Origin: Rhizobium oryzihabitans
GTDB taxonomy: Bacteria > Pseudomonadota > Alphaproteobacteria > Rhizobiales > Rhizobiaceae
Direction: 5' to 3'
Length of the DNA: 64,000 nt
Assembly (NCBI RefSeq): GCF_010669145.1
Contig: NZ_CP048635.1
Span: 930,001 to 994,000, forward strand
In this document: positions 413-18,563 of the stretch, in pieces
Numbering within the stretch: position 1 is the stretch's first letter
How the letters are laid out: every line of letters starts with the position of its first letter
Translations under genes and position numbers: made by a program
The notes under the pieces: generated by a model
Told to the model about the DNA's origin: nothing
The model's input: the letters and a program-made list of their open reading frames with translations, nothing else
Databases searched by the model: none

Positions 413-874
413 TCATACCCTGCGGTCAGGCACAAGGTCAAGGCTCGTGGAAGTGGGGCAAGTGATCTGTCTCGCCAGCTGTAGGGCAGTGGGAGTAAGG
501 CGTGATCGTGCGGATACCTGGCATTCCCAAACCACGATGACCCTCCAGCCCAAAGCTTCCAGTTCTGAGATAACCCTTCGATCACGGTCGATATTTCTTT
601 CGAACTTGGCATTCCAGAAGTCAGGATTTGTCTTCGGGTTTGATGCCACCTTGCACCCCAGATGACGATGCCAGAAGCAGCCGTGTAAAAAAACCACTGT
701 CTTATGACGAGGAAAGACGAGGTCGGGCCGACCGGGCAAGCCCGCGCCACCAAGCCGATATCTCAATCCTAGCTGATGTAGTGCCTTGCGAAGCGAGATT
801 TCAGGTTTGGTATCTTTTGAACGGATGCGGGCCATGCGCTTGGAGCGTTCGCTTGGGGTAAGGAAATCGACCAA
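413..874 (-). CDS. vsr: very short patch repair-type endonuclease Vsr
   Basis: The product is 153 residues, the usual length for Vsr, a strand-nicking enzyme that in E. coli repairs T:G mismatches arising from deaminated 5-methylcytosine. The N-terminus has RMARIRSKDTKPE. Asp51 (GRPDLVF), His64 and His69 (FLHGCFWHRH) match the E. coli active-site positions; E. coli Thr63 is Leu here. The start is TTG with GGGAGCGG upstream. It is divergent from the ATPase gene at 1076 and is the gene nearest the left attachment site. A cytosine methyltransferase lies 3.5 kb away in the same module, as expected for a Vsr partner. It could act in repair or as the nuclease of the module. Confidence 0.92.
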   Translation of the reverse strand: MVDFLTPSERSKRMARIRSKDTKPEISLRKALHQLGLRYRLGGAGLPGRPDLVFPRHKTVVFLHGCFWHRHLGCKVASNPKTNPDFWNAKFERNIDRDRRVISELEALGWRVIVVWECQVSARSRLTPTALQLARQITCPTSTSLDLVPDRRV

Positions 875-1075
875 AACACCGCTCCCGCTGCTTCGTGCCT
901 TTTCCTGAGGGCAGGAGCGGCACGTTTGATTCCATCTTTAGTAAATCGTTGATATAGACAGCGGTCACGAAAACATGAGCAACCACTGAATGCCGACGAT
1001 ACGGCTCCGCCAATTTTTCCGTGTAGAGGTGGCTCGGCCCCCTATTGCAGCAGCTTATTTGGAGTAAAAGAAGGC
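875..1075. promoter_or_regulatory. divergent promoter region between vsr and the ATPase gene
   Basis: About 200 bases separate the leftward vsr start from the rightward ATPase start, so promoters for both must lie here. The part nearest the ATPase gene is relatively AT-rich. I cannot place -35/-10 boxes with confidence. Confidence 0.4.
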
Positions 1076-3412
1076 ATGGGGACAGAGACTTTTCGAATCA
1101 GCTCGTATCTAAAAGACATTATTGGTCGCGACCTCGTGACCAACGAGTTTGTCGCAATATTCGAACTTGTTAAGAATTCCTTTGATGCAAAAGCCAAGAC
1201 AGTCGACATTGAGTTCGATCCCAGCGAGCGAACAATTACAATCGTTGATAACGGCATTGGAATGTCCCGAAAAGATATTCGCGATAAATGGTTGTTCGTT
1301 GCCTACTCGGAAAAGGCTCTTGTTGACCCCGATACTTACCGGGACAAGATCAGGCCAGCTGGCCAATTTGCTGGTAGCAAAGGTATCGGCAGATTCGCGT
1401 GTGATACCCTCGGCCAACAATTGGAGCTGTACAGCCGAGTGGAAGGCAGTAAATCCATATCAAGATTAGAAATTGATTGGACGAAATTCGAAGCAAGCAG
1501 CACCGACGAATTCCAAGACGTCCAGGTGACTCTTGATACTGTTAGCGCTTTCCCTTCCGGTGCAAATGCCAAAGCGCCCGTCGCGAATGGTACTGTCCTC
1601 GTAATTAAGAGCACGCGCCAGGAATGGGATGCAGAGCGAATTCGGCGACTACGCAAGGACCTAGCAAAGCTGATCGATCCGTTTGGGACCACTACCCATG
1701 TGAAAGTCCAAACGTGGCTGCTAGATGGCTCTACTGAGCAGATAGAGGGTGTAGACGGACCGGTTGGCAATGACGTCGCTGGGCTACTGCAGGAAAAAAC
1801 AAGTCGAATTGAGGTCGTGATCGAGGGCGACAAGATCACGAGCACCCTCTTTGACCGTGGACGGAAGATTTACGCCGTACGTGAACCGTCGCCATTAAGC
1901 GAACTGAGTGATTGCCGCATTGAAGGGCACATCTACTTCCTTAATAGGTCGGCAAAACATACGTTTACCGTCCGCATGGGGGTGCGACCAATTGAGTTTG
2001 GAAGCATATTTCTCTTCCTCAATCGGTTCCGAATTTTTCCCATAGGGGAGGAATTTGACGATACCTTTGGACTAAACCGAAGGAAGCAACAAGGGCAGTC
2101 TCGCTACTTTGGAACTCGCGATATAATCGGTCGGGTTGACGTGACAGCTCCTCCAAAGATGTTCCGCGAAGTATCGAGTCGTGACGCCGGACTCGTCGAG
2201 GACGCCCGAAGTCGAGCCCTATTCGAGGCAATCCGGAGGTACATGATCTTTCGGCTCGAAAGATATGTTGTCGGCGTGAACTGGGCAGACGCACGCGATC
2301 AGGAACGCGATACAGCTGAAGGTCTTGAGACAGATAGGGCGCGGGAACGGGTTTTGTCCGTGATAGGCACACTGGCTCGAACCAAAGATGTTGAAATCCT
2401 ATACTACGACAAGGAGTTGGTCAGGGTTTCCGACGATCCTGATCAGGTCACGGACGCGGCGCTCAAGGCCATGTCGGAGGTCGCAGAGAGCCGGGGAGAT
2501 ACTTCGCTCCTACGGCAGGTGGAAGACGCGCGTAGGCGGATCGAGGAACTTCGTGCTTCGAGAGAGGAGGCGAGAGAGATTGCGCAGCGCGCCGTTGAGG
2601 AAAGGCAGCGAGCTGACGCCATAATCGAGCGACTGGAACAACAGGCCGCGTTTCTCGGACGGAGTAAGGATGTTGATGTCGAGCGTGTCGAGCTGCTGAT
2701 GCACCAAGCCATCATTCATTCCGGTCATATTCGCTCAGCCATCTCAAACGCTGCGCACGAGATTAGGAACGTACTATCTCATGCTACGCTCCCCGAGGAG
2801 CTTGAGTTGGAAGATGCGGGAGATGTGGAGGACATTTTCGCCTCGATCCGCCAATCTGCTCGTCGAGTTACGGTATCCCTAGCAGAAGCGAGTCTTTCAG
2901 GCGATAGGCTGCGAACCGTGCTTTCCTTCGCTCCAAATATCCGAGTGGATTTGGAGACTGATGAAGTGCGCGGCGATCTAATGACCTTCCTCAAGGAATA
3001 CTTCGAGGTGAGGCTGTCGGGAATTCCGGGGATGCCGCATGCGGCCTTCGACGCGTCGGGCTTGTCACTTCACCGCGAGTTTTCACCTGTCGACGTCGCG
3101 GTCATTGTGGATAACCTTCAAGACAATTCCCGGAAAGCGAAGGCCAGCAGGGTCGAATTCAAAGCTGCGAAAAAGGGACAGAATGGCGTCGTCATCAGAG
3201 TTTCGGATGATGGTTTAGGCATTGATCAACGAAGAGTCGATCCAGCTAAGATATTTGAACGTGGCTACACCGGGTCAGCCACTGGGACAGGGCTAGGCTT
3301 ATACAGCGTCCGCCAGATCATCCAGAAGATGGGTGGCACAATCGAACTTGTTGGTGATGGCAGCCGCGCAGATTTCGATATTACTATTTTCGGGGATAAA
3401 CATGAACCTTGA
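1076..3412 (+). CDS. dual GHKL ATPase / histidine kinase-like protein
   Basis: The 778-residue product has two Bergerat-fold ATPase domains. The N-terminal one resembles the Hsp90/MutL/MORC type: N box around E30, N34 and D37 (ELVKNSFDA), G1 DNGIGM at 58-63, and glycine lid GSKGIGRF at 100-107. A central region of about 300 residues is unassigned. A charged helical stretch at about 460-545 is probably a coiled coil. It leads to a DHp-like helix with candidate phospho-histidine H561 (NAAHEIRNV) and a C-terminal histidine-kinase ATPase domain: N box about 679-689, G1 DDGLGI at 711-716, G2 GTGLGLYS at 737-744. The stop overlaps the receiver gene by 11 bp, so the two are translationally linked. 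No membrane segment is seen, so sensing is presumably cytosolic. The function in a defence module is inferred. Confidence 0.8.
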   Translation: MGTETFRISSYLKDIIGRDLVTNEFVAIFELVKNSFDAKAKTVDIEFDPSERTITIVDNGIGMSRKDIRDKWLFVAYSEKALVDPDTYRDKIRPAGQFAGSKGIGRFACDTLGQQLELYSRVEGSKSISRLEIDWTKFEASSTDEFQDVQVTLDTVSAFPSGANAKAPVANGTVLVIKSTRQEWDAERIRRLRKDLAKLIDPFGTTTHVKVQTWLLDGSTEQIEGVDGPVGNDVAGLLQEKTSRIEVVIEGDKITSTLFDRGRKIYAVREPSPLSELSDCRIEGHIYFLNRSAKHTFTVRMGVRPIEFGSIFLFLNRFRIFPIGEEFDDTFGLNRRKQQGQSRYFGTRDIIGRVDVTAPPKMFREVSSRDAGLVEDARSRALFEAIRRYMIFRLERYVVGVNWADARDQERDTAEGLETDRARERVLSVIGTLARTKDVEILYYDKELVRVSDDPDQVTDAALKAMSEVAESRGDTSLLRQVEDARRRIEELRASREEAREIAQRAVEERQRADAIIERLEQQAAFLGRSKDVDVERVELLMHQAIIHSGHIRSAISNAAHEIRNVLSHATLPEELELEDAGDVEDIFASIRQSARRVTVSLAEASLSGDRLRTVLSFAPNIRVDLETDEVRGDLMTFLKEYFEVRLSGIPGMPHAAFDASGLSLHREFSPVDVAVIVDNLQDNSRKAKASRVEFKAAKKGQNGVVIRVSDDGLGIDQRRVDPAKIFERGYTGSATGTGLGLYSVRQIIQKMGGTIELVGDGSRADFDITIFGDKHEP

Positions 3413-4352
3413 CTTTGGAATCCTTTGGATTGAGGATTCTTTTAGCCGTGAAGAAGAAGAAAATCTGCGGCGGCGCGTCCTTGACGCAGGTTTTATTGCA
3501 AGAATCGAAGTAATTCCGAACGGGACCGGGATCGAAGAACTATCCAGGGAACATGGTCTTTACCACCGATTTGATATTATCCTCCTTGACTATCGCCTGA
3601 AGGACGAAAACGGAGACGATCTCGCTCCTACGGTCCGGAGATTGTTCCCATCTACCACGATACTCTTTTATTCAGGTAGCGTGCCCGAAGACAGCCTGCG
3701 CCAGATGATCGCCGAAAAAAAGGTCGAAGGTGTCTATTGCAGCGCCAGGGGTCGCTTCATTGAACGGACCGGCGGACTCATTGACCAAACGGCAAGATCG
3801 CTGGACAGGCTCTCGGGAATGCGAGGACTGGCAATGCGTGTGGTCGCGGAATGCGACGATCTTATGAAGAAGGCCATACAGTGCATGGCCGTGCGCGATC
3901 CCAACTGCGCCGCGAAAGTGTCAGAACTCGACGAGGATGTCCTAACATTTGTTATGTCGATGAAGGAAAAGTACGAAGCGGCTGTTGAGGCCGACCTTGA
4001 CACGCGTTTCGGCACATTCGCAGTAGACAGCACGAAACTCTTCAAGCATTTTCGGCGACTTACTCAAGTGGTTGCATCCGACCCAAAGCCGTTTGGTCTC
4101 AGCGATGAGCAAGTCGAACGGCTACGCGAATTGCGGCGGCTTAGTGCCCAGTACGATCAAAAGGTTCTCAAGAAGCGAAATATCCTCGGCCACGTCATTG
4201 AGATCAAGAGTGACACGGGCTGGGTACTACAGGGAAGCAACGAGATTGGTGTCGGTGACTTCCCGGAAATCAGAAGGGTTTTCGCAGCCCACATCGACGC
4301 TCTTCGTGAAATGAGTGATCTCGTCCATTTCACGGAGCCGAAGCAAGCCTAG
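3402..4352 (+). CDS. receiver-domain protein paired with the GHKL kinase
   Basis: The start is the ATG at 3402 inside the 3' end of the kinase gene, which gives 316 residues. Residues 1-125 form a receiver-like domain: acidic pair E11/D12 (ILWIEDS), candidate phosphoacceptor D63 (IILLDYRL), and switch serine S91 or S93 (FYSGS). The usual conserved lysine is not evident; the equivalent stretch reads VYCSARG. The remaining 190 residues are mostly helical and charged, carry no recognisable DNA-binding motif, and do not match an output domain I know. It is presumably the phosphotransfer or signalling partner of the upstream kinase. Its 3' end meets the convergent methyltransferase gene. Confidence 0.75.
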   Translation: MNLDFGILWIEDSFSREEEENLRRRVLDAGFIARIEVIPNGTGIEELSREHGLYHRFDIILLDYRLKDENGDDLAPTVRRLFPSTTILFYSGSVPEDSLRQMIAEKKVEGVYCSARGRFIERTGGLIDQTARSLDRLSGMRGLAMRVVAECDDLMKKAIQCMAVRDPNCAAKVSELDEDVLTFVMSMKEKYEAAVEADLDTRFGTFAVDSTKLFKHFRRLTQVVASDPKPFGLSDEQVERLRELRRLSAQYDQKVLKKRNILGHVIEIKSDTGWVLQGSNEIGVGDFPEIRRVFAAHIDALREMSDLVHFTEPKQA

Positions 4353-5530
4353 CAGCATTTCGCCAAGCGCTTCAGCCAAAAGGGGTGGTACAGCGTTGCC
4401 GACCTGAGTGAAGCGTGGACATGCATCCTTTCGTCGTGCCCCCCCGTCGTATAGGGACCTTGAAATGAAAACCAATCCGGGAATGACTGCAGGCGCGCGT
4501 GTTCGCGGACAGTCATTGCCCTTGGCTCGGAATAGTGGATGAAGTCGTCAGGCAGCGTTCCAATCGTCGGAGACGGTGCGTTCGGATCGAGCGGCGTAGT
4601 TGACCGCTTCTTGATACCGAGGCGCATCCTGTCATCCGGCCGCAAACACACGCCACGCTCGCAGTTATCGAGAATGTCCTTCATCCGCTTAGTCGCAGCT
4701 TCAGTATGGCGCGGTAGTCGCATGTCGGTCGGCTGGGCAGGACTGCCAATCCTCATCAGTTGCTGAAATGTGCTAGTTGCTGAAGCCGCGCGCTGCAGGG
4801 TTTTGAACCCGCGATGGCCCCACTCGGCATCCAGGTGTAATCCGTCAATTTCTTCAAGGTCCGAGATCGCAGCCTTCGCACCCGTTTCCCCAGGACCAAG
4901 GCCCCTTGCCTTGAGGAACGCCTTTCGGCCCACGCGCATTCGCTGAATTGGATCAATCCCACGCAACGCACCTTTGATGGCCGCAACCAGCACGAACCGC
5001 GGTCGTCGCTGTGGTACACCCCAATCCGCAGCGCGCAATACATCGTACCATGTGTCATACCCGAGATCATCCAGAACCCGAACCACATAGTCGCGGTAGG
5101 TCCCGCCAGTTCTATGGTTCATCGACTGGAAGCCAACGACGTTCTCCAGCAAGACGAGACGTGGCCGTACAGTGTCGACATACTGCAGGTAAACGTCAAC
5201 CATGCGACTTCGGGGATCGTCCGGACGACGCAGGCCGTTCATGCTGAAACCCTGGCATGGGGGTCCGCCAGCGATCAGGTCAACCTTTCCGCGAAGGGCA
5301 AGCAGTTCTGCTTGATGTTGTACCAGAAGGTCCTGTGCATACCAGGCCCGTTTTTCCAACCATCTAGGCCAGCTATGGGTGGCGGAGCGCCTGTCCAGTA
5401 GATTATGCTTGTAGGTCGCAAATGCATCAGGATGGGCCTCGACGCCAAGCAGGGTCTTGAAACCGGCCTTACCCAACCCAAGCGAAAGGCCGCCGCATCC
5501 GGCGAAAAGGTCGATAGTTGTTGGCTTCAT
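4349..5530 (-). CDS. dcm: DNA (cytosine-5) methyltransferase, 3' end frameshifted
   Basis: This is a C5-cytosine methyltransferase with motif I FAGCGGLSLGL at 9-19, motif IV GGPPCQGFS with catalytic C92, motif VI ENV at 129-131, motif VIII QRRPR and motif IX near the C-terminus. Motif X is absent from this frame but present in the next one (TQVGNAVPPLLAEALG). The frames separate at a run of seven Gs near 4437-4443. Adding one G restores a 434-residue enzyme ending at 4227, which would overlap the convergent receiver gene by 126 bp. As written the protein is 393 residues with an aberrant tail and probably inactive. It is a plausible partner of vsr at 413. Loss of one G may be an assembly error or slippage. 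Confidence 0.88.
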   Translation of the reverse strand: MKPTTIDLFAGCGGLSLGLGKAGFKTLLGVEAHPDAFATYKHNLLDRRSATHSWPRWLEKRAWYAQDLLVQHQAELLALRGKVDLIAGGPPCQGFSMNGLRRPDDPRSRMVDVYLQYVDTVRPRLVLLENVVGFQSMNHRTGGTYRDYVVRVLDDLGYDTWYDVLRAADWGVPQRRPRFVLVAAIKGALRGIDPIQRMRVGRKAFLKARGLGPGETGAKAAISDLEEIDGLHLDAEWGHRGFKTLQRAASATSTFQQLMRIGSPAQPTDMRLPRHTEAATKRMKDILDNCERGVCLRPDDRMRLGIKKRSTTPLDPNAPSPTIGTLPDDFIHYSEPRAMTVREHARLQSFPDWFSFQGPYTTGGHDERMHVHASLRSATLYHPFWLKRLAKCC

Positions 5531-5958: not shown

Positions 5959-7110
5959 ATGGCCTATCAATTCATCCATCTCGAGTCCTGGAGCCGCAAG
6001 CCCGACGACAAGGGCCGCTCCACCGATTTCATTTTTGACGAGGCGTCCCGGAAGCCGATCGCCTCGGTCCACGTCGCTGATCCCAAACCTCCGACGGTGA
6101 TTTACGGCCTCAGTGTCAATGAGGTTCGCCAAATGCACGATGAGGCAGTCGCGGCGGCGATGACACCCGGTGCACGGGGGAAACTCCGTAAAATCGCCTC
6201 GACGCAGAAAACCTTGCATACAGTCGTTGCATCGCATCCATACACCGTCGAGGACGTCCGCGCCGACCCGAAAAAGGCGAAGGAAGTGCGGGATTGGGAG
6301 CGGCGCACGGTTGCATGGCTCAAGGAACAATATGGGCTCGCGCTCAAATCCGTCATCCGTCATACGGACGAACAGCAATGGCATATCCACGCCTACGTGC
6401 TGCCGACCCATGATCCTGAGCTTCGGGCTGGATTGTACCATCCCGGCGGCGTCGCCAAGAAAGCGGTGAAGGCGGCCGGAAGGCGTGACGGCGAGGATGG
6501 GAAGGCGCTCAATAAAAGAGCGGACGTCGCCTACAAGTCGGCCATGCGCGACTGGCAGGATTCCTACCACGAAACCGTCGCCGTGCCTTGCGGCCTGACG
6601 CGCCTCGGTCCAGCCCGTCGCCGTCTTACACGGGAAGAGTGGAAAGCTGAGCAAGCCCAGGCACGGGCGCTTCAGAACGCCGTTGACCGAGCGGAGGCCG
6701 TGAAGCGGCAAGGTCAAGCCTACATTGATCGCACGAAGGCGGAGGCGACCGCCGTCAAGGCTGAAGTGGCACAGGCCAAAGCATCCGCCGACCGCCTGGC
6801 GGGGATCGGCGGTGCTGTTCGCGCCGTCGTAGACGGTATTCAGGAATCCCGAATCCGCGCCCAAATCCGCAACGACTTCGTACGCGATCTCGCCAAAGCA
6901 AAAGCAGCGATGGAAAAAGCGCAAGCGGAGGCCGCAAAAGCAAAAAACTCCCAGCGCAATGCCGAGAAGCAGGCTGCCGAGCAGCGTCACGCTTTCCGTC
7001 AACAGCGGGAACGGCTTGTGGCCGCGCAGCAGGAAATCCGGACATTGTCCACCGCACTCGCAGCGGCACTGGAGGAACCTGAACCGACACCGGGAGTACC
7101 AGCACCATGA
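5959..7110 (+). CDS. Mob-family relaxase / mobilisation protein
   Basis: The 383-residue product has a relaxase-like N-terminal half. Its key signature is a histidine cluster: H135 in VIRHTDEQQ and H142/H144 in WHIHAYVLP, the metal-binding motif of strand-transfer relaxases. The C-terminal third (about 210-370) is an Ala/Lys/Gln-rich helical region, probably coiled coil. Such proteins nick oriT and lead the transferred strand. It is the first gene of a rightward operon that continues with overlapping genes to 10634. The ATG start has only a weak ribosome-binding site. The exact MOB class cannot be assigned by eye. Confidence 0.75.
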   Translation: MAYQFIHLESWSRKPDDKGRSTDFIFDEASRKPIASVHVADPKPPTVIYGLSVNEVRQMHDEAVAAAMTPGARGKLRKIASTQKTLHTVVASHPYTVEDVRADPKKAKEVRDWERRTVAWLKEQYGLALKSVIRHTDEQQWHIHAYVLPTHDPELRAGLYHPGGVAKKAVKAAGRRDGEDGKALNKRADVAYKSAMRDWQDSYHETVAVPCGLTRLGPARRRLTREEWKAEQAQARALQNAVDRAEAVKRQGQAYIDRTKAEATAVKAEVAQAKASADRLAGIGGAVRAVVDGIQESRIRAQIRNDFVRDLAKAKAAMEKAQAEAAKAKNSQRNAEKQAAEQRHAFRQQRERLVAAQQEIRTLSTALAAALEEPEPTPGVPAP

Positions 7111-10704: not shown

Positions 10705-12075
10705 TCAACGCATCATGTGAAAGTCCGTGACATCATCGGGTGCATCACCTTGCTCGGAATGGTACATGCTTGGAGCGACGCCCCGCATCAACTCCTGAAG
10801 ATCGATCGGGCGCGGACGACGGCGCTCTTCTCCGTCTTGCACGGGTTCCGGGTTATTGCCGTTGCGGGCATTCTCAAAGGCACGGTAGTGGCGCAATGCC
10901 TGACGAAGCTCGGACTTGGTGCCATTGGACAGGGCTTCGAAACCGGACGCGCTTTCCAAGGCCGCGATCTCCAAGGCCTCATTCTCGAAGGTGCGGCCAA
11001 AGAGCATATAGCGAGCACGCCCAAGGCTCGACTTGATGTTGCGGGCGGTTGCGCGTGAGCGCTGGTTGCCACGAACAAGCCACTGCATGAAGCGTTCCTC
11101 GGTCTTCGGGGAAATCTTTCCCGTCTGACGGTCGAGGATGACTTTTCCGATGATTTCGGCGGCCGTGGGCGGGACGGCGTTGGCGATCATCACCATAATG
11201 CGGCGTTTGTTCTTCGAGCACCATTTCCAACCCTCTGGAAACCCTTGGATACGGGACAGGAATTTCTGGTGGCCAACAGCTGCGTCCTCCAGCGGAGCGC
11301 TGTCATTCGGGTGCGCCTCATACTTGGCCTTCAGCGCTGCCGAGGGCGGCTCGCCCGATGTTCTGGTAATCGTCGCATAGGGCTCATCAACGCTGCGGAC
11401 GGCACGGCCGGCGCGAAGCGGCCGCGTGTAGATGTGTCCTTTCACGACGATATCGAGATTGTATTCCGGTCGCCACTGGTTCTCTGCCGTTGGCATTTCT
11501 CCCATCGCTTTGGTGAATTCCCGCCGCACGGATTTCGGTACGTCGGTGGCGGCATCCGCGATCGCGCCCTCAATGAACCCATCGCGTTCGCCGAGACGTC
11601 CCACGACGATCAGACGACGTCGCGCCTCTGGCGTATTGTAGTAGGAGAAATCGACCCGGCACTCTGAGATACCGTAGCAAGCTTTCTTCAACATCGTGCG
11701 CGCCTCGGCCCACGAGCGGGAGCGCGCTGCCTGAACGACGTTTTCCATGATGAACCATTCAGGGCGCACCGACGCAACGGTGATCGCGTATGCCAGGGTC
11801 AGTCTGGCGTTCTTGCCCTCGGCACGCTTGCCGGCCACGGAGAAGTCCTGACATGGAGGGCCACCCGCGATGAGGTCGGGTTTCAGGTCCACGATATCCG
11901 GGATAATGCTGAGAAGATCGGACAGGTCACGCTGATGAACGTGGTCGCCAATGTTCGTGCGGTAGGTCTCGACCGCGTCCGGCATGCTGTCATAAGCAGC
12001 GACGACATCAAAGCCAGCGCGCTTGAGACCAAGCGACATACCGCCCGCGCCACAGAAAAGTTCAACAACCTTCAT
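10705..12075 (-). CDS. DNA (cytosine-5) methyltransferase with C-terminal extension
   Basis: The 456-residue protein has motif I FCGAGGMSLGL at 7-17, motif IV GGPPCQDFS with catalytic C75, motif VI ENV at 111-113, motif VIII EARRRLIVVG and motif X IANAVPPTAAEIIG. About 140 residues follow motif X. They are charged and helical, unusual for a stand-alone enzyme, and could be a DNA-recognition or partner domain. It is clearly different from the methyltransferase at 4349. No restriction endonuclease lies beside it, so it may protect the island from host restriction during transfer or act as an orphan regulator. Confidence 0.9.
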   Translation of the reverse strand: MKVVELFCGAGGMSLGLKRAGFDVVAAYDSMPDAVETYRTNIGDHVHQRDLSDLLSIIPDIVDLKPDLIAGGPPCQDFSVAGKRAEGKNARLTLAYAITVASVRPEWFIMENVVQAARSRSWAEARTMLKKACYGISECRVDFSYYNTPEARRRLIVVGRLGERDGFIEGAIADAATDVPKSVRREFTKAMGEMPTAENQWRPEYNLDIVVKGHIYTRPLRAGRAVRSVDEPYATITRTSGEPPSAALKAKYEAHPNDSAPLEDAAVGHQKFLSRIQGFPEGWKWCSKNKRRIMVMIANAVPPTAAEIIGKVILDRQTGKISPKTEERFMQWLVRGNQRSRATARNIKSSLGRARYMLFGRTFENEALEIAALESASGFEALSNGTKSELRQALRHYRAFENARNGNNPEPVQDGEERRRPRPIDLQELMRGVAPSMYHSEQGDAPDDVTDFHMMR

Positions 12076-12243: not shown

Positions 12244-12465
12244 TCAATGTGTGTCTTCACGTTGTTCGATCTCGCGGATCAGTTCCCATGCATCGCCAAG
12301 GGCGGCGTGTACTTTCTCCATCCGTTTTGCGACCGCCGCCCCGTCACGTGTTCCGAAATCGGAAAAGCGGGCTGCGATAGAACCGATCTCGTTGCGGAGA
12401 CGACAGTACGTATCGTGGTTCATGGGGAACCTGGCGATTGGAAAGTCGGAGATTTTCGCCTTCAT
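12244..12465 (-). CDS. small hypothetical protein, 73 residues
   Basis: The start chosen is the ATG at 12465 (MKAKISDFPIARFP), which has GGGGAGAAT just upstream. The product is a mostly helical soluble protein rich in charged residues, ending EQREDTH. It is the last gene of a leftward run of small genes beginning at about 14241. No family recognised. Such short proteins are typical of plasmid and ICE maintenance regions. Confidence 0.5.
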   Translation of the reverse strand: MKAKISDFPIARFPMNHDTYCRLRNEIGSIAARFSDFGTRDGAAVAKRMEKVHAALGDAWELIREIEQREDTH

Positions 12466-12478
12466 ATTATTCTCCCCA

Positions 12479-12817
12479 TCAGGCTTCTGTTTTAAGGGAT
12501 TCTTCATGGGCCGGCCCGAGCACCGCCACCAGAAAGCGACCCCGTGCCGCCTCGGCTGCCTCCCACGCCCGGATGACTTCTTCCATGTCGCGGAAGTCGC
12601 AATCAAACTCTATCGCATAGCTTCCAAGATGCTGGCGCAGCACGTGACGGGCGTGATCATCGCCTTCACCATCGCTCCCAACGAGATCGAACCGGACGCA
12701 CCCTTCGCTTGGGACGTCCACGACGATGGGCTCGACCCATTCATAGTTGCCCGACGGATCGACAATCGCCAGTTTGCCGCCGAAGCCGAAGTCGTCGAAT
12801 TTGAATTTCGTGTTCAT
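12479..12817 (-). CDS. hypothetical protein, 112 residues
   Basis: This is an acidic soluble protein beginning MNTKFKFDDFGFGG. Its start overlaps the stop of the upstream ribbon-helix-helix gene by 4 bases, which indicates translational coupling. The pattern is mixed strand then helix: DFRDMEEVIRAWEAAEAARG near residues 75-95. I do not recognise the family. The position among small plasmid-type genes suggests a maintenance or anti-restriction role, without direct evidence. Confidence 0.6.
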   Translation of the reverse strand: MNTKFKFDDFGFGGKLAIVDPSGNYEWVEPIVVDVPSEGCVRFDLVGSDGEGDDHARHVLRQHLGSYAIEFDCDFRDMEEVIRAWEAAEAARGRFLVAVLGPAHEESLKTEA

Positions 12818-16804: not shown

Positions 16805-18385
16805 TTATTTAATCTCAAATCTCGGGAACTTCGCTATTTCGTGCGCCAATACGTGAGGTTTGAAACCGCCGTATGCTTCCCCTTCGGTCGCGGGGATATG
16901 GCCTTGCATGTAGTCACGTGCTCCAACATCCATGTAAACGCCTCGGGCTTCAGTCTTGAAAAAATGACGCCACGCGTGGTTTGGCCTTATCCTATCGTCA
17001 TCCACGCCGAGTTTCCTGACCCAATCGGCCAGCCGCTCACCGACCTTGTTGTACTGCGGATTACCTTCGGTGCCGCCACGATGTCGAGAAGGGTCGTAAA
17101 ACAACGGGCCTTTCCGTCTCGCCTTAACAAAGTCCAAGAATCCCTGGTCAACGAGGTGCGAGTGGATGGCGACAAATCGTGGATTCCGGTTCTTTGTCGA
17201 TCCAGCCTCTGGCGTGATCCAGATCAGGGAGTGCCCGTCATGAACTTGGATATCTTCTTTGCGTAGCTGCGCGATCTCGCCCACTCGTGCTCCTGTGTAA
17301 GCACATAACCAAGGAACCCAACGGTACGCTGCCTTCATCTCGGATGAGCACCTTGCGGGTGGCATAGCAAGCGATCCTTTCAAGATCGTCATTGCTTCAT
17401 CGATTGTAAACCACTTCTGGCGCGTTGTCGTCTTATGGGGTACCGCGACCGTTATTCCATCAAGCGGGTTGACCTGTATACGCCTGTTTCCTTTTGCCCA
17501 TGTGCATGTTGCGCGAAGGCATGCCAAATGACCGTCTCTAATGGAAACGGCGCTCAGGCCTTTTTTGAGGAGGCTGTCTTTCCAGTCAACTACCCAGTCG
17601 GCGGTCAAATCGCGAATATCTGGCACCTCGAGCGCCACTTTTGCGATAATCCCCTTCCACTTCTTATAGGTGGCCGCAGCCTGTTGTTTTTCGGCGAAGA
17701 AATCCTCGAAAACCTGGAGCAGGCCGTATTTTCCAGAATCCTCATGACCGTTTTCCTTTGGAGCCTTCTTTGGCGCGAGTTCAAGTTGGGGAAAACGATC
17801 GGCATCAGGATCGGGACGGTAGTCTCCGTTTGAGAGCTTCAGCAGATGTTCCTTTGCTTGCATGACGGCATGGGCGACGGCGTTGCGGAGGAGTGTCATG
17901 CTCAGGTCGTCGACACGATAGCCGTGACGATTAAGATAGTCATTGATCGCTCGGTCATTGCGGCGAACCTTGTATGTTTCCATGACTCGCTCGAAAAGCG
18001 CGTCATCCTTGGTCAATTGGAAGACCTTCACTTTCTCCGGGCGAAGATGCAGATGATCAGCAATCAGCGATGCCTCTCGAAGGTGAGGTGTTCCTGGATC
18101 ATCCTCATTTTCGGCAATCATCGCTTGATAGATTTCCCCGGACATGGCGACCGCTTGCTTCTGGGAAAGGGAAATTTGGCCGGCAGATAGCTGCCGCCAT
18201 CGTGCTTCGGTTTCCGCGAGTATCCGGGCATGCACAATCTTGGCTTCTTGGGGATCGCGTGTGCCGAGGCTGACCTTTTCCTCTCTTTTTCCTACAAGAG
18301 GAATCAGATGCTCAGGAACGCGCTTTCGGAATTGATAGATACCTGTGGTGGGGTGCTTTGTGGGACGTGACATTTTCAGGACCAT
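16805..18385 (-). CDS. int: tyrosine-type site-specific integrase
   Basis: The 526-residue tyrosine recombinase has catalytic residues R367 (AYTGARVGEIAQLR), K398 (GSTKNRNPRF), H470 and R473 (HAWRHF), H496 (YMQGH) and nucleophile Y505 (GEAYGGF). An N-terminal arm-binding segment (PTTGIYQFRKRVPEHL) and a core-binding domain at about 220-320 precede the catalytic domain. The gene starts 86 bases from the 3' end of tRNA-Ser(CGA) and reads away from it, the usual layout for islands that integrate into tRNA 3' ends. It should catalyse integration and excision at the repeats 307-325 and 18470-18488. An internal ATG at codon 5 is an alternative start. Confidence 0.95.
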   Translation of the reverse strand: MVLKMSRPTKHPTTGIYQFRKRVPEHLIPLVGKREEKVSLGTRDPQEAKIVHARILAETEARWRQLSAGQISLSQKQAVAMSGEIYQAMIAENEDDPGTPHLREASLIADHLHLRPEKVKVFQLTKDDALFERVMETYKVRRNDRAINDYLNRHGYRVDDLSMTLLRNAVAHAVMQAKEHLLKLSNGDYRPDPDADRFPQLELAPKKAPKENGHEDSGKYGLLQVFEDFFAEKQQAAATYKKWKGIIAKVALEVPDIRDLTADWVVDWKDSLLKKGLSAVSIRDGHLACLRATCTWAKGNRRIQVNPLDGITVAVPHKTTTRQKWFTIDEAMTILKGSLAMPPARCSSEMKAAYRWVPWLCAYTGARVGEIAQLRKEDIQVHDGHSLIWITPEAGSTKNRNPRFVAIHSHLVDQGFLDFVKARRKGPLFYDPSRHRGGTEGNPQYNKVGERLADWVRKLGVDDDRIRPNHAWRHFFKTEARGVYMDVGARDYMQGHIPATEGEAYGGFKPHVLAHEIAKFPRFEIK

Positions 18386-18469: not shown

Positions 18470-18488
18470 TATGGCGGAGAGGGTGGGA
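18470..18488. repeat. right attachment-site repeat inside tRNA-Ser
   Basis: This is the right copy of the 19-bp direct repeat, covering the CCA and 3' acceptor and T-arm edge of tRNA-Ser(CGA), identical to 307-325. The tRNA remains whole, so the crossover restores or preserves its 3' end. Confidence 0.85.
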
Positions 18489-18563
18489 TTCGAACCCACG
18501 ATACCCTTGCAGGTATGCCGCATTTCGAGTGCGGTGCATTCGACCACTCTGCCACCTCTCCGC
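18472..18563 (-). tRNA. tRNA-Ser (anticodon CGA)
   Basis: The minus strand folds as a class II tRNA with acceptor stem GCGGAGA/TCTCCGC, anticodon loop CTCGAAA giving CGA, a long variable arm, T-loop TTCGAAT and an encoded CCA. The length, about 89 bases plus CCA, fits tRNA-Ser. It is the integration target of the island on its 3' side. Confidence 0.95.

Follow-up and report, generated by a model that had tools for sequence, protein, structure and literature searches.

A recurrent kinase, receiver and C5 methyltransferase module in a Rhizobium oryzihabitans tRNA island: a possible phosphorelay-triggered defence system

The window analysed here is a stretch of 64,000 nucleotides of Rhizobium oryzihabitans DNA (NCBI RefSeq assembly GCF_010669145.1, contig NZ_CP048635.1, positions 930,001 to 994,000), and its first 5.5 kb carry four genes of a putative defence module. 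An initial annotation of the window had placed here a Vsr nuclease, a kinase with two ATPase domains, an overlapping receiver and a cytosine methyltransferase, and all four open reading frames (ORFs) were recovered at these positions with matching Pfam and NCBIfam domains. The vsr gene (413-874, minus strand) encodes a T:G mismatch endonuclease of 153 amino acids and is divergent from the gene of a dual-GHKL sensor kinase (1076-3412, plus strand; 778 amino acids), which consists of an N-terminal MutL/HgiDII-like ATPase, a DHp region with H543 in an HQ motif and a C-terminal HATPase_c domain. The 3' end of the kinase gene overlaps by 11 nucleotides with the start of the receiver gene (3402-4352, plus strand; 316 amino acids), whose product has a REC domain (E11, D12, D63) and an all-helical C-terminal domain with the motif R259-N260-x3-H264. 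The ATG at 3402 is favoured by the relatives as the receiver start, although the frame is open as far back as the listed start, a GTG at 3333. The C5 cytosine DNA methyltransferase (4349-5530, minus strand; 393 amino acids; DNA_methylase match 2e-44, GGPPCQGFS at residue 88 and ENV at 129) lies tail to tail with the receiver, the 3' ends of the two genes overlapping by four nucleotides. The G+C content of the module is 0.54, versus 0.60 in the right-hand chromosome.

The kinase search identified 5090 proteins at E ≤0.001 among 7997 scored; the best 120 of these 5090 relatives were listed. We compared 73 related kinase loci, 64 of them in species genomes, seven in viral contigs and two in genomes of the window's family. 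These loci cover nine named phyla: Pseudomonadota (38), Bacteroidota (14), Chloroflexota (5) and, with one locus each, Verrucomicrobiota, Bacillota, Acidobacteriota, Zixiibacteriota, Nitrospinota and Campylobacterota; the remaining 10 have no phylum name. In 71 of the 73 loci the kinase is followed by a receiver-type frame, and 68 have a C5 methyltransferase, in 64 cases no more than 300 nucleotides from kinase or receiver. Of the five loci without a methyltransferase, three are truncated by the end of a contig; the other two, L011 and L012 from Pseudomonas, have none in the flanks examined. In 33 of the 73 loci, receiver and minus-strand methyltransferase are arranged tail to tail. Pairwise distances, from which shared ancestry was not removed, correlate between kinase and receiver (rho 0.73, n=58), between kinase and methyltransferase (0.39, n=65) and, weakly, between Vsr and the other three genes (0.14-0.33, n=16-20). 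Thus, of the four genes that had been proposed to occur together, kinase, receiver and methyltransferase recur far outside this genome and form the constant unit; Vsr is found at only 22 of the 73 loci. The module is rare and patchy: three of 394 genomes of the family have it (E ≤1e-80, the window's own genome included), and a search of the phylum returned three of 398 genomes (E ≤1e-30, again with its own), two of which match only part of the model.

Vsr is an accessory, labile gene outside this unit. The Vsr of the window has a strong match to the Pfam and NCBIfam models (1e-29; TIGR00632 with 149.4 bits against a cut-off of 97.85), and its residues 7-132 align at 1.2e-34 to the solved DNA mismatch endonuclease 1cw0, which we take to be Escherichia coli Vsr, with the stretch HGCFWH in common. 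We looked for Vsr in the stretch around each module, and contig ends shorten some of these stretches; several of the 22 copies are kilobases away from the kinase, and the match at locus L020 is weak. On a kinase tree (73 rows including the window, 21 of them positive for Vsr at >80 bits) Vsr presence requires at least 16 changes, compared with five for the arrangement of the methyltransferase; the tree is a quick build with long branches among its plasmid rows. HhH-GPD superfamily glycosylases include T:G repair enzymes, and genes of this family adjoin two Vsr-less modules (L049 and L070), the L049 copy having the iron-sulphur motif of endonuclease III. Because of this lability a mismatch-repair helper is likelier than an effector, and the tree changes, the weak distance correlation, the alignment to 1cw0 and the HhH-GPD genes, taken together, make repair of deaminated 5-methylcytosine the more likely function of Vsr.

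The initial annotation had instead suggested a methylation-linked system with Vsr as its restriction nuclease, under the control of phosphotransfer. The position of vsr beside the module in the window, and its presence in the examined stretch of 22 loci, agree with this suggestion, as do the Vsr-superfamily nucleases that accompany restriction-modification (R-M) operons of the MORC/paraMORC type in the available sections of Iyer, Abhiman and Aravind 2008 (PMC2292703). However, 51 of the 73 loci show no Vsr in stretches of which some are shortened, the gene changes far more often than the methyltransferase arrangement, its distances track those of receiver and methyltransferase only weakly, an HhH-GPD gene stands in at two loci and the protein itself closely resembles a mismatch endonuclease of known structure. 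We therefore consider a gated Vsr very improbable.

A nuclease common to the Vsr-less modules was sought among their neighbours. There are 137 module-adjacent genes in all loci, of which 94 belong to Vsr-less loci and encode fewer than 1400 amino acids; 86 of these were scanned, leaving out five caspase-like genes (see below), one half of the L072 receiver, a second methyltransferase at L037 and a contig-edge ORF at L070. The commonest Pfam families were HNH_2 (L039, L052 and L068) and HTH_23, with three matches each, followed by HMGL-like, HhH-GPD, HTH_29, HTH_28 and HTH_32 with two each; PADLOC returned two HNH models (three each), mad2 (two) and a type II nicking model (two). No Pfam family occurs in more than three of the 86 neighbours, and the scan therefore gave no candidate for a constant fourth gene. 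Measured against type II R-M systems, the module has the C5 methyltransferase and no shared nuclease among these 86 neighbours, a search that did not extend to unlinked enzymes. The two Pseudomonas loci L011 and L012, which do have vsr, carry in addition a gene of about 1830 codons upstream, the L012 copy of which matches TrwB_AAD_bind; genes for about 1800 amino acids adjoin vsr in L042 and L051, too.

All hallmarks of two-component signalling are present in the module: the DHp histidine H543, the core motifs of HATPase_c and D63 of the receiver. The kinase matches HATPase_c_3 at residues 25-140 and HATPase_c at 674-764, and residues 16-209 match the BbrUII/HgiDII model NF050001 at 7.9e-25 (87 bits, with a cut-off of 550 bits). 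The hydropathy profiles of kinase and receiver contain no transmembrane-like window. H543 is a histidine in all 73 aligned kinases (the window and 72 loci) and is therefore the likely phosphoacceptor. H561, which had been named as the phosphorylated residue, is not supported in this role: it is a histidine in only 18 of the 73 kinases and already replaced by tyrosine or phenylalanine in six of 24 close relatives. The residue after H543 is glutamine in the window; twelve distant plasmid kinases have the histidine in this column throughout, followed by glutamate or, in L101, by alanine.

D63 of the receiver, which the initial annotation had also named, is invariant, together with R259 and H264, in 61 receivers picked for a length of more than 270 amino acids. 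The Response_reg match of the window protein is weak (0.00017, 22 bits, below the cut-off of 30 bits). What had been overlooked is the probable effector, the C-terminal domain of the receiver (residues 136-316; 3807-4352, plus strand). The arginine and histidine of its RNxxxH motif are invariant in 62 chosen C-terminal domains and the asparagine is present in at least 90%; of the 74 ORFs that we assigned to the receivers, 58 contain RNxx[AG]H, versus seven of 1325 other ORFs. HEPN domains are defined by a conserved Rx4-6H with a polar residue after the arginine, and R259-N260-x3-H264 fits this definition. Related receivers are mostly about 300-325 amino acids long and have the motif.

REC domains dominated the results when the complete receiver was used for fold searches. 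A separate model was therefore built for the C-terminal domain, which gave a confident, all-helical structure (predicted local distance difference test, pLDDT, 91.4). The structure prediction that the initial annotation had recommended for this domain yielded a confident helical model and no clear fold match. When 42 isolated domains were scanned with Pfam, the sub-threshold matches were spread over 57 families and included several of the HEPN superfamily: HEPN_MAE_28990 (three, best 0.0014), RiboL-PSP (two), Swt1 (two), RNase L (one) and Apea (one). A profile of the receiver domains scores 27.5 against one of 59 MAE_28990 HEPN proteins, compared with a mean of 11.7 and a maximum of 20.2 for 40 column shuffles, and the RN..H motifs of the two profiles are aligned in register. 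A smaller HEPN profile of eight proteins, among them wrongly L088, gave almost no signal (probability 5%). In a search for standalone HEPN relatives, nearly all of the 120 matches listed (of 379) are receivers that belong to this family. When the domain profile was compared with proteins of known structure, the matches were weak and unrelated, the best two being to an antiapoptotic membrane protein (0.006-0.017). Together, the motif and the weak profile matches suggest that the receiver ends in a putative HEPN-like ribonuclease domain.

In seven loci (L046, L050, L056, L061, L066, L078 and L079) the receiver is shorter (228-248 amino acids) and the RNxxxH domain is missing; here, the receiver is followed by a gene for 211-232 amino acids with invariant GHG and C.S motifs. 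Six of the ten PDB matches to this protein (E ≤10) are caspases, the best at 0.06. One of four members scanned with Pfam had a weak Peptidase_C25 match (0.12), the others matched unrelated models or nothing, and an NCBIfam scan gave nothing useful. These matches are suggestive of a caspase-like gene in place of the HEPN-like domain. The seven loci fall in two separate clades on the kinase tree, the plasmid relative L101 shares their arrangement as judged by motif, and starred branches force three changes of the caspase-like label. Some tree labels were set by hand: the HEPN label was given to L010 despite its interrupted receiver, to L072, whose receiver is split over two ORFs, and to L036 with its variant R-I-E-F-A-H; L101 was classed as caspase-like by motif alone and L044, L065 and L069 were left unlabelled. 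The receiver gene of L010 (12301-14446) is apparently broken by minus-strand ORFs between the REC and C-terminal parts; at L065, a receiver of 142 amino acids (12270-12698), REC alone, follows the kinase without a recognised effector.

More distant relatives are found on plasmids. We examined 12 of 100 matched plasmid records; the kinases are about 24-36% identical where they align. Among these relatives, short receivers adjoin genes annotated as HNH (L098, L108) or MBL-fold (L100, L105), and the annotation of the methyltransferase near the module is sometimes N-6, Eco57I-type or type I. RNxxxH is absent from the equivalent position in all 11 annotated plasmid receivers that were read; a single R[NH]xxxH match occurs in L102, at residue 175 of its 357. 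The RNxxxH domain thus seems to be a feature of the HQ lineage to which the window kinase belongs. A Campylobacter coli conjugative plasmid (L099, 5953-10406) encodes kinase, response regulator and dcm in the same tail-to-tail order, with a receiver C-terminus that differs from the one of the window; 41 of the 100 matched plasmid records are from Campylobacter. In L100 (3122-8291) and L105 (4495-9271), the kinase is accompanied by a short receiver and the gene for the MBL-fold hydrolase, possibly another effector class, and the L100 module adjoins a gene for a type I methyltransferase subunit.

These exchanges bear on whether the receiver output is an enzyme at all. The helical domain could be a non-enzymatic binding module, its phosphorylated form switching the methyltransferase or the ATPase of the kinase, and the module would then control methylation or an unlinked restriction enzyme. 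The domain has no fold match and no HEPN match above threshold, the tail-to-tail genes of receiver and methyltransferase in 33 of 73 loci would suit such a partnership, and Bellieny-Rabelo et al. 2021 (PMC8011034, available in part) propose an R-M-associated two-component system. Yet, the R..H pair is of a catalytic type and invariant in the 62 chosen domains, from a locus set that covers nine named phyla; moreover, a caspase-like gene, another effector class, takes the place of the domain in related clades, and MBL-fold or HNH genes are found beside the shorter receivers of distant relatives. We regard a purely regulatory role as unlikely.

The module is part of a mobile island, as the initial annotation had correctly recognised. 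The element is about 18 kb in size and bounded by an exact 19-nucleotide direct repeat of the end of a tRNA-Ser gene: the distal attachment repeat (307-325) is identical to the proximal one (18470-18488), which lies at the 3' end of the tRNA gene (18472-18561, minus strand). The gene that adjoins the tRNA (16805-18385) is integrase-like, with a Phage_integrase match of 0.00013 that stays below the cut-off, and the module sits at the opposite end of the island. The island also encodes a second, different C5 methyltransferase of 456 amino acids (10705-12075, minus strand) and a weakly Mob_Pre-like protein (5959-7110, plus strand; Pfam 0.0018, below cut-off); the genes after the latter, up to 9757, have no Pfam match and are perhaps the mobilisation region of the island.

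This location raises the possibility that the module serves its own element by addiction, with the methyltransferase as antidote: loss of the element would let methylation fade and set off the effector. The tRNA island with its integrase-like and Mob_Pre-like genes and the occurrence of distant relatives on plasmids are consistent with such stabilisation, and R-M systems are called selfish elements in the available part of PMC8011034. However, some modules, such as those of L010 and L012, come from large records of chromosome size, and an addiction function would leave defence possible, as one sensing mechanism would serve both. Addiction as the main function appears improbable to us, if less so than a gated Vsr.

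We favour a methyltransferase-guarded abortive defence module that is triggered by a phosphorelay, and put the probability of this reading at somewhat below one half (about 0.45). The C5 methyltransferase would mark the host's own DNA, as expected from its family, and the MutL/HgiDII-like ATPase of the kinase may engage DNA or a DNA-bound complex. Missing self-marking or invading DNA would then activate the C-terminal kinase core, and, as the invariant residues and the architecture suggest, H543 would be autophosphorylated and pass the phosphate to D63 of the receiver. Phosphorylation would release or dimerise the HEPN-like domain, which would cut RNA and stop the cell; Vsr, where present, would repair T:G mismatches arising from deaminated 5-methylcytosine. 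HgiDII is itself paired with a C5 methyltransferase, and the sensor may share the ATPase part of such enzymes, with a kinase core in place of the DNase and the output moved to the receiver. From the earlier interpretation, the recurring, patchy, R-M-like module with a phosphorelay is retained (methyltransferase in 68 and receiver in 71 of 73 loci), and Vsr as gated nuclease is not.

Several observations limit this reading. The HEPN call is supported by the motif and by weak profile matches, with no fold match: neither PDB nor viral models gave a clear match in the fold search with the C-terminal domain, and no HEPN chain is among the matches listed. The methyltransferase lineage is swapped between close kinases (L013, L017, L073 and L076, the first and last being nearly identical copies), and the two Pseudomonas loci have no C5 methyltransferase in their examined flanks.

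On balance, the data suggest a system that resembles R-M but has a phosphorelay and a host-directed effector where restriction would be expected, an antiviral alarm of the suicide type. More tentatively, the modules may represent R-M-like immunity of a new class: a methyl mark would be read by a MutL/HgiDII-like kinase, and a phosphorelay would lead to interchangeable effectors instead of a DNase (a receiver-fused HEPN domain in the window, a caspase-like protease in related clades, HNH or MBL-fold proteins in distant plasmid relatives, some of which have N-6 or type I methyltransferase annotations). If true, this would link DNA modification as a self-label with two-component signalling and death effectors (a HEPN RNase or a caspase-like protease), give a function to the published association of kinase, receiver and methylase, with H543, D63, R259 and H264 as key residues, and shift the role of Vsr from effector to repair helper.

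Two-component phosphotransfer is used against phages by Detocs; to our knowledge, gene set and effectors of Detocs differ from those of the window module and no methyltransferase is part of it. With BbrUII/HgiDII restriction enzymes (NF050001) only the N-terminal ATPase part is common, and the window protein continues with a histidine-kinase core. MORC/paraMORC GHKL ATPases share a GHKL module with C5 methylase and Vsr neighbours, but in the available text (PMC2292703) they have C-terminal nuclease, TIR or unknown domains and no kinase core, and the word 'receiver' occurs zero times. MAE_28990-type HEPN RNases have an RNxIAH-type motif in common with the window domain, which differs in its fusion to REC; the similarity is weak and there is no fold match. 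In the accessible parts of a HEPN survey (PMC3710099), HEPN domains are linked to R-M and abortive infection (Abi) systems, and the single mention of a receiver concerns another fusion. A figure legend in the available part of DefensePredictor (PMC13092281) lists HATPase and REC domains among predicted systems, whose identity is not readable from it. In the portions of the literature that our search covered, no description of a receiver-HEPN protein accompanied by a methyltransferase was found.

The claim of the initial annotation that no such system had been described was too strong. Bellieny-Rabelo et al. 2021 (PMC8011034), in the sections available, report that genes for GHKL kinase-like and receiver-like proteins occur together with those for C5 methylases, HNH_2 and Vsr (the latter in 20 genera). 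They propose a two-component system and found no other known domain in its receivers; the set is thus not wholly undescribed. These HEF_HK (PF19191)/Response_reg_2 (PF19192) systems resemble the window module in the kinase (HATPase_c_3, DHp and HATPase_c), the receiver-like gene, the C5 methylase and, often, Vsr or HNH_2. However, PF19191 is not among the five Pfam families that the window kinase matches at E ≤10 and is found in at most two of 24 kinase relatives (it is outside the 25 most-matched of 44 families). The window receiver has no PF19192 match at E ≤1 and its genome none at 0.001; 10 of 61 receiver relatives match PF19192, the best at 1.4e-4. The published systems have a core histidine followed by glutamate or aspartate and a conserved REC lysine, whereas the window has H543-Q and its receivers no conserved lysine column. 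Three PF19192 proteins are 525-647 amino acids long with no RNxxxH counterpart seen by eye, unlike the shorter RNxxxH receivers of the window type, and neither a HEPN nor a caspase effector is named in the available description. Judged by its sequences, the window lineage therefore differs from the published association of kinase, receiver and methylase in its Pfam domains, in the signature residues of DHp and REC and in its predicted receiver output.

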